A stretch of 64,000 nt of DNA from positions 434,001 through 498,000 of the forward strand of contig NW_026570295.1 in NCBI RefSeq assembly GCF_019649055.1, read 5' to 3'. Shown one piece after another: positions 39,901-45,043 of this stretch. Source of the DNA: Paramacrobiotus metropolitanus (Eukaryota; Tardigrada; Eutardigrada; Parachela; Macrobiotidae). Below the pieces are notes generated by a model. That model was not told where the DNA came from and did not search any database. It saw only the letters and a program-made list of their open reading frames with translations. A program made the translations under genes and the position numbers. The stretch's first letter is position 1; each line of letters opens with the position of its first letter.

Positions 39901-42900
39901 TGTGCAGTACTAGTTGTTGTATAGCGTATACTGCGTATGTACAATACAGTTGTACGTACTACTCTAGGGACACATGCCGGAAGAAAGTAGGGGTGCAGAC
40001 TAGGCATCCTTCGTTTTTTTGCGCTATCACTAAATCGAATTATTCTTCGTTGATTTGAGCACTAATAATTGCATTTTGCCGGATTGTGCAGATGGGTCCG
40101 CTCAACGAGCCGAATCGATTACCACGACCACCCGAACAACGGCAAATCCGGCCGGTTCCACGTCCAGTCCACCGGCATCCCCAACCAGGCCCTTAGCATA
40201 GCGCGCCTGTACACGCCCTGCCTTGCTGTCTCCTCTGACTCCAGCCTGGACTTCTTCGTTCACTTGTATGGACCCTCCATCCAGTACGTCCAACTGAAGT
40301 CCCTTTCCAACGCCGCCAACAACGAGACCGTCCTCTGGAGCAGCAGCAGCGTTCAGTCCAACGCCTGGCTGCACCCCACCCTCCCCGTCCCCGCCTCCAC
40401 CAACGTCGTCTTCATCCTGGAAGCGGCCTTCTCCGACGCCGACTCCACCGTCGCCATCGACCAGATCCGCTTGCTCAACGAAGCGGAAGTGGTCACTTTG
40501 GGCGACAACTGTCCCGGCGTGGCGCCGGTGACCCCGGCGACCACCCGCCCCACGCGGCCAACCGTCACCACCCCGGTACCGCCCCTGCCCACCGGGACGT
40601 TGAGCTGCTCCTTCAATTCCCATTTCTGCGGGTACGGATATCAAGGTTTCAGGATATCCAACACCAGTGAGGACATAACGACCTCCGTGGGCGGTGGCAT
40701 GGCGCTGTTCCAACCGAACAGTCAGCAACGTCACGCCAATTTATTGTCGCGTGGGTTCTACGTGCGGGAACGCATGCAGGTGTTCTTCTTCTACTTCGCC
40801 CATGCGGATGTGGAAACATTCACGGTGAAGGCGCATTACGTCGTCAATGGACAGATCACCTCGACGGATGTCTTGTTTGAACTGCACGGAAGCGCCGCCC
40901 TGGGCGGGATGGCGTTTGGACGCTGGATCCCCGGTCGGGTGACGCTTTGTGTGCCCGGATTCTCGCCGTTGGTACAGCTGGAGTTCAGCGTCACAGCTGG
41001 GTAAGTAGCAGACCTGGGCAGTTATGGAATTTGGACTCATAGTTAGAGTTAATAGTTAATCGCAGCTCGCGAGTTAAGTTACGAGTTGAGTTAGCGACAA
41101 TAACTCGAGTTAACTCGCGTTAAAATAAAAAAAATCGCTTTTCAATAAAAAAATTCTGCACTTTATTAACCATTTTCAACTAATCTCTTATGCGTACTAG
41201 TATCACTATTACCAGATTTGAAACACATTTCAGAATTAAAATTTTTCGAGCAAGTGTTTTCAGAACTCGCATCAGTGCAATTAGCTCGTCTGGGACCCAG
41301 GGAAGCGCCGGCAACGCTGGACTTTTACACTATGGTGTATTAGTATGGTTCTCTGTACATGGCTGCCAAACATGGCGTTACACGGCTCGGACTGTTTTCC
41401 CAATGGACAAGTAGCAGAAACACACAGACAACAAATTCCCTTGTGGTTTTGCTGCAGAACATTGGCGTCCTCCTACCGTTGACCAAAGTTTGTTCTCTAA
41501 AAAACTCCCCGTCTGTTCTCTGCACGCTGCTAGAGCCTGGACGTGTTACTGCATTATGTTAATTAAAGCTCAAATGATGTAAAAGACTACAATCACAGTC
41601 AGAATGCACTGATTGCACTCGCACTCCACAATACTTACGTAGAAGAAGAGAAGCGTTTTGCTCGGACTGTTTCCCTCTATTGCTGCTGTCACCCGCCTGG
41701 ATAGTGATGCGTTACCGCAGTACATCTGATTAAATCTGGCGCACTAAAGAAGTGCCGTGTTTAGCTACAGCCTACAACGTAGAAACTCCAGCCAGGTAAC
41801 GGCAGCAGTACAGGGAGACGGTTCGAGTGTAGTGGTTTTCCCCTTATATTCATCTAGCCAATGCCTTGGGCGGTCGTACTGTTCGTTGGCACGAACAGTT
41901 TTGAACATAGATGCTTTTATAATTTCGAAAATTTATGCGATACACGGTTAGAATAATATTCTTTCTGATGATATTTCTGAAACTCAGTTTCATTTTTAAC
42001 ATCAACTGAAATCTGCAGAGTTACGCTAAACTCGAGTTGCGCTATATTATTTTTGAGTTGCGCTAGAGTTAAGTTTTCGTCCTCGCGAGTTAAGCTTCAG
42101 AGTTAAGTTATAACTCGTTAACTCGAAAAAAACTCGCGTTAAGTTAAATAGTTAAAATTAACTGCCCAGGTCTGGTAAGTAGAATTATAAATAATAAAAA
42201 TTGTGAATTTTTGTGCATAAAATATTAAGGAAAATATTTAAAAAATTCAAAACAGTATTAAACAGTATTTATTTATTTAAACAAAACAGTATTTAAAAAA
42301 TTCAAAACATTTTAAACAGATGAAAATTTATGAAAATTGGTAATAGTAATCAGTTTTACTCAGTATGGACGCTTCACGCAGTGTTTGATCCCTGAATAAT
42401 TAATCATTCTGCCTCTTCTGTATGCATAAGAAAAAACGAAGTGTAGTGCGTTTGTTTTTATGTGGTAAGCTAATTCTCAGCTGTCGGAAACTTAAAGTCA
42501 GGCTCAGGTTGAATCCCTTACACTACGATAATTTGATGCCGGCAAACGGTATTCATATTCAGTATTTTGCGCTTTGACGACCAGGATTCCATCGTACACA
42601 GCAGCCACTTATGTTCGCGTCCGTCTGTCTGAATGCTATTAGAATTTAATACAGTAGTAACTTTTTAGAAAGAAATTTTCGGTCAACGTTGTTTTAAGAA
42701 AAGAAAATAAAATGGAACGGTTTTTCAAATTTGAATTCGTTATCTCTTTAATAAAAAAATGTAAAGAAAAGACAAGGGAATATCATGCAATAAAATACAA
42801 GAAATGTGCATAAAATAAAACGGAAATGTTTTTGAAATTGTGATTCTTGCTGTTTATTCGGAATTTGCTGCAGAGCCGGTTCCTCGTCGGAATTTGCTCT

Positions 42901-45043
42901 TGACGAGATCATCATCAACCGCGAAACCCAGGCCACCTCCCTTACCCCTCTGAACAGCACCCTGGACTGCGGCCCGATCAATCGACCTAATTCCCTGACC
43001 TGCGAAGACATCGCCCCCGGCGCGCCCTTCTGCGGCTGGCAGGCCCCGCCCGGCGTCACCACCCAGGTTCTGCCCGGCACGCACGAGACCGCGCTGGTCG
43101 TCCTGGGCGAAGCGCTGTCCGCCGGTCCCGTGCAGGTCGTCAGCGGGGAGATCCCGCCGCATTCCGAACCGACCAACTTCGCCTTCAAGTACATGCTGGT
43201 CACCCGCGCCCGCCTGCAGGTGGATCTCCTGGTGGGCGGGGACAACAGTCTGCCCTATCCCTTGGCCCCCACGGAGAACGCCGAACGCTGGAATTCCGCC
43301 GTGGTGGAGGTTCCCGCCAGCGATCAGCCCAGCCGAATTGTACGTTCGCATTTTGTGTTATGGTTTCTAAGGTTGTTTTTCCACAACACACAACATCAGT
43401 TAGTTTAATATTATTATATATTATCAGTATTTAACAGATTAATAAAGGTATCAGTGAGGCTGCTTACAAAGTGAAATAAACAGCACAACAAACAGCGTTT
43501 AAAATCAAACTAATTAGAAGTAAAATGTTATTATTAACATTAAAAAATAAAGCAAAATGTTTGTCTATAATAACTTACTTAGTAAGCGATTGGTGGAATT
43601 TGTTTAATTACTGGTGCTTCGAAATTAAGTTTTTAATATACTGCATGCCTTGTATATGTAAGCAGTTTTAGTTTTGACAACTTTAATCTGTTCAGATTGG
43701 CGTTTGCTTGTCAAACTATACAGCTGGTTACCTGAATGCATATTGGTGATTAAGTAACGGTTAATTTTTTATTTGATTTTGCCGCCAGTTTACGATTGGC
43801 ATGTGTTTTGCAGACCTTCCGCGTCAGTGTCCTGGAGGTGCAGAACCGTCAGGAGCCGGGAGTCGTGCCGGCGTTGTTCGCGCTGACGGACACGTGGTAC
43901 TCGGCTGAAGAAGGTAAGCGACGTGCTAATTTAACGGGGAACAGCACTAAACGCTATGGTTCTGTGCAGGCTTCGTGGCGCAACTGGACAACGTGACCAC
44001 CACCGTCTCTCCCGTCACCACCGAGCCGACGGCAACATCCGGATCGACGGTGACATCGGTCACCACCGGGCCAACGGGCACCGCTGGGTCCACGACCACA
44101 TCCGGACCGACGGTAACATCAGTGACATCAGAGTCCCCGACACCAACAACCGGTACGCAACCCTTATTGTCTGTCGCCAGAAAATACAGTTTCTGTTGTT
44201 CGTCCTCAATATGCTCGATATTATGGTAAATAATTCTGCAAAATTCCCGAGATCTTTCGAAATTATTTAGTCTCCACAGATTTCGATTGTAATTGTTTTC
44301 CTTTTAGTTTTCGGTGAATGTGTGAATGGGGCCTTATGCTCTCGTTACTCGTATTGTCGGTTAATAGTTTGTTTAATTTTTTCAAAAGCTTGTTTTCTTA
44401 GTAATTCTTAGTTCTATTTTTTTGCGGCTACAAGCGGCATTGATTTCAGTAATGGCATTTTTGGCTGTTAAACACCTTTCCGAAGATTTATCTTTGGTCA
44501 ATTTCGTTGTTGCGGTCAATATTTTGCTCTTTGTTCCCATATTGTTCCTTCAACTCTGACGGTCCGTTTTATTTATTTCCTTTTTTTGTGGTTTTTGCAG
44601 TTTGTCATTTTATTTTCTGATCATTACTAAATAACTTAAAATGCAATCGATTTTTTTACCGTGCAGTTCCGACGACGAACGCCACCACCCCGCCCATCGT
44701 CGTCCGGCCGACGAGCGCACCCCAGGCCTACAGCACGCAGGACATCGTGCTGATCAGCGTGGGCTCGGTGGCCGGCGCCCTGGTGCTGCTGGGCGTGGTC
44801 ATCGCGCTGCTGCACTTGCGCAGCAAGCGCCGCGAGCGCCAGGGCCGCAGCTACGAGGAGCACGTCGTCACCGAGACGCCGCTGACGGAGATGTCCACGC
44901 GCACCTCCACCATGTCCAAACCGCCGGCCTACAGCAGCAAACCCCCAACACCGCCGCCCGCCAGCGGCCAGAGCACGCCGCCGCCCTCGCAGCCGACGGT
45001 GGCCGCCTTCCGCACCAAGGGCTTCGACGAGGAGACGCTTTAA
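36962..45043 (+). CDS. MAM-B 3' half: MAM repeats, mucin-like stalk, transmembrane helix, PPAY tail
   Basis: Exons: 36962-37105, 37287-37761, 38138-38386, 39148-39844, 40092-41000, 42874-43339, 43814-43913, 43970-44152, 44667-45043. All junctions are GT-AG with matching phase. MAM starts include CDFQTDEPTNYICGW, CGFEDGFCGW, HFEAENCGW, CHFEDGFCGW and CSFNSHFCGY; the last domain (CEDIAPGAPFCGW) is divergent. A Thr/Ser-rich stalk (VTTEPTATSGSTVTS) follows, then a helix (IVLISVGSVAGALVLLGVVI), a basic stop-transfer (RSKRRER) and a cytoplasmic tail with PPAY, a WW-domain ligand, and EETL at the end. This makes it a type I membrane receptor or adhesion protein. Two exons need a one-base correction to stay in frame (near 38250 and 39280), so it is either recently dead or carries consensus errors. 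The last five exons are clean. Confidence 0.75.
41009..42174. mobile_element. Non-autonomous hAT-type element inserted at a splice donor
   Basis: The terminal inverted repeat CAGACCTGGGCAGTTA occurs at 41009-41024 and, inverted, at 42159-42174. A perfect 8-bp direct repeat GTAAGTAG flanks the element (41001-41008 and 42175-42182). The 8-bp length, the CAG start and the nTnnnnAn pattern of the duplication all fit hAT transposons. The duplicated octamer is the donor of the exon ending at 41000. Both ends also carry many AACTCGAGTTAACTCG-like words that could pair. No transposase frame is seen in the 1,166 bp. Confidence 0.88.

Follow-up and report, generated by a model that had tools for sequence, protein, structure and literature searches.

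The hAT transposon hobo of Drosophila melanogaster, a member of the Ac family, inserts at a palindromic 14-bp target motif, GTNCGNAC, flanks included (PMC3276498), and Hermes prefers targets of the form nTnnnnAn (PMC10368747), a pattern that has also served as a mark of the Ac family (PMC8961557). Mar and other hAT MITEs of the Buster family are deletion-derived and carry 8-bp duplications (PMC3517528). In the open-licence literature we found neither a published hAT insertion that duplicates an existing donor nor any transposon described as inserting into existing donors at a constant register and restoring them. Here we describe a hAT element inserted at a splice donor in a 64,000-nucleotide stretch of Paramacrobiotus metropolitanus DNA, all of which we call the window, and compare it with other members of its family in the genome.

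The element is non-autonomous and 1,166 bp long (41009..42174, no strand assigned), and is delimited by perfect 16-bp inverted ends and by its similarity to other copies. Its left terminal inverted repeat, CAGACCTGGGCAGTTA (41009..41024, plus strand), agrees with end matches across the genome, and the right one (42159..42174, minus strand) is the exact reverse complement of CAGACCTGGGCAGTTA, with an acceptor-like CAG on the plus strand at 42167-42169. Whichever strand is read, a CAG lies 5 bases from the element's 3' end. No transposase was found among the open frames of this copy. It is 99.7% identical to two other copies (L019 and L014), which points to recent movement, and its ends align with those of the 4,443-bp copy L111 at 74% over 314 columns and 84% over 158 columns.

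The 16-bp end has 262 matches in the genome at no more than one mismatch, vs. 1 for a reversed control pattern. We examined part of this family, 112 places comprising the window site and 111 others, some of them single ends. Octamers that were equal or differed at one base flanked 82 of the 112; the remaining 30 were dropped because the partner end was absent or the octamers had at least two differences. Partner ends were chosen by the best duplication match, which slightly favours acceptance. Such pairs at 82 of 112 family places mean that the equal octamers at the window site are not a product of chance. Removal of three places that repeat an insertion already counted, in duplicated flanks, left 79 independent insertions. 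Flanks are shared at different places by L049 and L050, by L012, L114 and L090, and by L020 and L096, which represent duplicated regions or unmerged assembly haplotypes.

Most independent copies are short (208-1,798 bp in 78 of 79). The exception in length, L111 (C210:20153-24595; L111:251-4693), has perfect ends and the duplication CAAGGAAC; it carries a hAT C-terminal dimerisation domain (PF05699, E 8.6e-13) among hAT transposase pieces that are spread over several open frames, and the solved structure most closely related to one such piece is Hermes (E 5.5e-7). L111 is thus a possible source of the family's mobility. Another copy, L036, is a deletion derivative of L111, about 98% identical over three stretches, whose PF05699 match has one stop inside. 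With its 8-bp duplications, the short terminal inverted repeats of the window copy and the PF05699 transposase of L111, the family has the features of hAT elements, and its target motif assigns it to the Ac/hobo/Hermes type. The hAT identity proposed in the initial annotation is thus borne out, with Hermes as the closest solved relative.

At the insertion site, the upstream exon belongs to a MAM-domain gene (40092..41000, plus strand). It ends ...GTC ACA GCT GG, with its last base at 41000, directly at the donor, and its start is placed by the AG at 40090-40091. This exon is delineated by an open frame (40069-41004), by a MAM match at C75:474090-474479 (window 40090-40479) and by the exon-bearing stretch of an inverted paralog, which is 91% identical. 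The left copy of the target duplication, GTAAGTAG (41001-41008, plus strand), provides positions +1 to +8 of the 5' splice site. The right copy of GTAAGTAG (42175-42182, plus strand) is intronic and constitutes a second donor, predicted to be unused. The remainder of the pre-existing intron follows (42183..42873, plus strand), with its acceptor AG at 42872-42873. The next exon (AGCCGGTTCC..., 42874..43339, plus strand) lies in an open frame (42836-43408), and its end is placed by the following GTACGTTC.

When 41000 is joined to 42874, the product reads ...LEFSVTAG and continues across the joint as AGSSSEFALDEI..., and the second exon completes the MAM match. The Pfam match to the joined product covers residues 19-148 and spans the joint at 132, but is weak, at 20.6 bits (E 4e-4) against a cut-off of 26.4. 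A neighbouring MAM repeat, located in the open frame of the upstream exon, reaches 48.8 bits. The site's own 80-aa frame, taken alone, had no match in the Pfam scan, and the gene assignment draws on the neighbouring MAM match, the paralog and the joined exons. No Rfam family matched the window at its gathering score. MAM-domain matches are clustered at C75:395000-435000 (minus strand), C75:469000-494000 (plus strand) and C4:628000-650000, and the window gene belongs to one of these clusters.

The inverted paralog, on the same contig (L041, C75:404000-409500), provides the empty site. It reads ...CACCGCTGG GTAAGTAG AATTATAAATAATAAAAATTGTGAA..., with a single GTAAGTAG and no element, and the junction ...GCTGG GTAAGTAG AATTATAAATAATAAAAATT... 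shows the equivalent exon end and intron. The introns of the two genes are 82-92% identical, the remainder of the window intron matching its element-free counterpart at 92.4% over 92 columns and 81.6% over 625 columns. On this comparison, the empty site proves that the window site received an insertion. Because the paralog has both the donor and the intron in the absence of the element, both are older than the insertion, and no intron was created. The initial annotation had described an element flanked by a duplicated donor octamer and had read it as the copying of a pre-existing donor; the window sequence and the empty paralog agree with it on both points, and its coordinates (40992-42182) were right except for the start, which falls inside the exon. 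In the paralog intron (L041:2230-2480), the acceptor and exon start occur in two copies about 200 bp apart (GCTGCAGAGACCGTTTCGCGTCGG... and CTGCAGAGCCGGTTCCGCGTCGG...); this looks like a duplication of the exon start in which the first copy is degenerate.

The empty site bears directly on the reading in which the element, acting as an Introner, itself made the intron, using its duplication as the donor and its right end as the acceptor. A donor is indeed present in the duplication, as in published Introners, which draw 5' splice sites from their duplications (PMC9860276), and the CAG near the 3' end is available in either orientation. However, the intron is present in the element-free paralog, and the acceptor lies beyond the element at all three supported loci described here. 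Moreover, use of the terminal CAG by an exonic insertion would leave GTCTG plus the 8-bp duplicate in the message, 13 extra nucleotides that would shift the frame. We therefore rejected this reading for the window site, where the intron predates the element; it is contradicted at the other two supported loci as well, and we regard it as very improbable overall. The earlier proposal that such an element could create a new intron is unsupported on the same grounds.

Instead, the whole element appears to be intronic, starting at intron position +9, and normal splicing from the left donor is predicted. The right-hand donor copy, preceded by CTG, is also a plausible donor, and a 5-nt exon, GTCTG, could arise between the CAG at 42167-42169 and this donor. 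This is unlikely, because there is no clear pyrimidine run before that CAG.

Two other insertions of the family were found at supported donors. In a DNA-PKcs-like gene (L038, C62:588074-589555), the exon (E 3.6e-34) ends CATCTG and is followed by GTAAGAAC, the element and a second GTAAGAAC. Joining this exon to the next improves the match to 4e-44, with a 4-residue alignment gap shortly after the joint; because the joint falls in a poorly conserved stretch, the exact exon end rests on the donor sequence together with homology. In an M13-peptidase gene on the minus strand (L078, C68:64791-65942), the exon ends CCAAAG and is followed by GTACGTAT, the element and GTACGTAT again. Downstream of the element, a short intron ending TTTTTTTCAG leads to the next exon, and the joined exons match PF05649 (E 3e-32) and align with neprilysin without a gap at the joint. 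At both loci, as read by eye, a further stretch of intron and a separate acceptor lie 3' of the element. At L017 (C8:1992806-1994288), a minus-strand open frame with MSGQQEPPRPCPG... reaches the target octamer, and the insertion may therefore be exonic and within coding sequence.

The target motif of the family, derived from sets of 36 and 62 sites, is palindromic and close to GTACGTAC, and three bases beyond it A and T are preferred. In the 62-site motif, the frequencies of T at position 2 and of A at position 7 are both 0.83, position 4 is C in 0.48 and T in 0.19, and position 5 is G in 0.48 and A in 0.19. GT occupies duplication position 1 on one or both strands at 66 of 79 sites. The Ac-family consensus of hobo and Hermes duplications, nTnnnnAn, which the initial annotation had named as the target preference, fits 56 of 79 independent insertions. 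Some copies, L120 and L121, lie in sequence dense with GTAC, GTAGTAC or words resembling GTAAGTAC, so that their flanks match the motif repeatedly.

We call the placement of donor position +1 on duplication base 1 register 1. A motif built from the 76 sites other than the three donor cases gives a generic donor in this register 18.3 times the affinity of the mean octamer (bootstrap 14.1-23.2), and rates GTAAGTAG at 82-fold, GTAAGAAC at 60-fold and GTACGTAT at 246-fold. Under the 62-site motif, to which the window site and L038 contribute, the generic donor scores 23-fold at register 1 and at most 4.3-fold at other registers; these were compared by donor score and, for L037 and L104, by inspection of the flanks. 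The scores of four further donors in the paralogous gene, chosen by eye, are widely spread (0.5, 3, 5 and 118 times the mean), so many real donors are not good targets. Judged by these scores, for which donor base frequencies were assumed, donors are favoured landing sites through their resemblance to the motif.

The observed number of donor insertions agrees with this. At least 3 of the 79 insertions lie at supported donors, in the window, in the DNA-PKcs-like gene and in the M13-peptidase gene, all at register 1. This is a lower bound, since the screen covered only upstream frames of at least 40 aa and shorter exons would be missed: of 87 oriented sites with GT at register 1, 33 had such a frame, and 39 of 40 frames were Pfam-scanned, one alternative window frame being omitted. 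Only L038 and L078 passed the Pfam cut-off in this screen; two weak matches below it, SHOCT and CoiA_N, were taken as noise. Wider flanks of L029, L037, L042, L053, L067, L071, L104, L001 and L034 yielded no supported exon end. For an assumed 40,000-150,000 donors, the expectation among 79 insertions is 0.02-0.07 under uniform landing and 0.34-1.28 under the motif. Three of 79 has a probability under the motif of 0.005 at 40,000 donors, 0.055 at 100,000 and 0.14 at 150,000. The count therefore greatly exceeds the uniform expectation and lies near that of the motif; if donors are few it is somewhat higher than the latter, and the motif may then not be the whole story.

Random landing on a donor, with the window case picked out from many elements, would account for the window case by itself, which is indeed a post hoc choice, and given the uniform expectation a single case is not impossible. 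Two more exact-donor cases among the other 78 insertions speak against it, as uniform landing of 79 insertions would give at least two such cases with a probability of 2e-4 to 2e-3 across the assumed range of donor numbers, and the register observed is the one that the motif predicts. We consider plain chance improbable.

As for what is recognised, a count near the motif prediction means that the transposase need not sense an exon border, and a suitable donor octamer suffices. GTAAGT occurs at register 1 on either strand in 5 of 79 insertions (the window, L004, L007, L009 and L031, with L004 showing it in one copy only), with a background of 0.0006 per octamer. Exon evidence exists for one of these five, the window, and the octamer rather than the exon border thus seems to be recognised. 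A GTAAGT duplication was rejected as a mark of a donor, as L004, L007, L009 and L031 have GTAAGTAC without exon evidence; the L007 site resembles a spacer between genes. The initial annotation had suggested that donors may be natural landing places, and this is upheld by the 3 of 79 insertions at supported donors and the roughly 18-fold motif affinity.

A further reading assigns only a minor role to affinity: exonic and splice-disrupting insertions would be purged, and exact-donor insertions would survive through the regenerated donor. If donors are few, the surplus beyond what the motif predicts leaves room for such a filter, yet a donor bias already follows from the motif of the other 76 sites. 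Because insertions deep in introns or between genes are equally neutral, survival alone is unlikely to give an excess of about 40-fold or more (3 vs. 0.02-0.07). We regard selection as an unlikely main cause.

Our preferred explanation, which we hold to be likely, is that a hobo/Hermes-type transposase hits donor-like octamers, that the 8-bp duplication regenerates the donor and that the element is spliced out. It is backed by the element and its ends, the duplication, the empty site, the target motif and three exact-donor insertions in three genes. A family member such as L111 would provide the transposase in trans, and this transposase would prefer a palindromic octamer near GTACGTAC, which the animal 5' splice site, GTRAGTAN, resembles at register 1. 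The donor would be cut with an 8-bp stagger, and gap filling would restore the full donor (+1 to +8) next to the exon and place another beyond the element. From intron position +9 onward, the element would be removed together with the intron, so that the insertion would be nearly neutral and able to persist. Normal splicing from the left donor, neutrality and mobilisation in trans are what we infer from this arrangement.

A transposon that enters a splice site would be expected to damage it. In this family, target motif and duplication length together would make an exact donor insertion self-repairing, a simple, countable route by which transposons may lengthen introns at little cost. Any annotated genome that contains a hAT family whose duplication motif is of the GT...AC form would allow a test of this route, and hobo in Drosophila is such a case, with 1,198 insertion sites in PMC3276498. 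More tentatively, the hobo-type hAT motif may mimic the 5' splice site, offering a register-locked safe landing in which the donor is regenerated and genes are colonised without harm; we think this possible rather than probable. If true, the same would be expected of hAT elements in general whose motifs resemble GTNCGNAC. Such a landing could also be a ready-made first half of an Introner, which would then need a well-placed acceptor, and is a plausible starting point for transposon-made introns.

The element itself is an ordinary hAT, and donors in target duplications are already described for Introners (PMC9860276); what our small numbers suggest as new is fixed-register landing on existing donors and their regeneration. 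By target motif, the family resembles hobo, with the same 8-bp duplication and a GTACGTAC-like motif beside GTNCGNAC, A and T being favoured three bases outside; the main text on hobo does not contain the word 'splice' and draws no link to donors (PMC3276498). Hermes is the best solved relative of the L111 transposase piece, and its preferred target pattern (PMC10368747) is shared by most family sites, but the family here consists mostly of short copies. Like Mar and the Buster MITEs, these are deletion-derived and have 8-bp duplications; the Buster motif, however, is nnnTAnnn (PMC3517528), whereas this family prefers C-G at positions 4-5 and so departs from the Buster consensus. With Introners the family shares a 5' splice site within the transposon's target duplication (PMC9860276). 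Neither a new intron in an exon (window and paralog) nor an element supplying both splice boundaries (three supported loci) was found. Introners convert exon sequence to new intron, whereas the insertion described here duplicated a donor that was already in place and lengthened the intron behind it.
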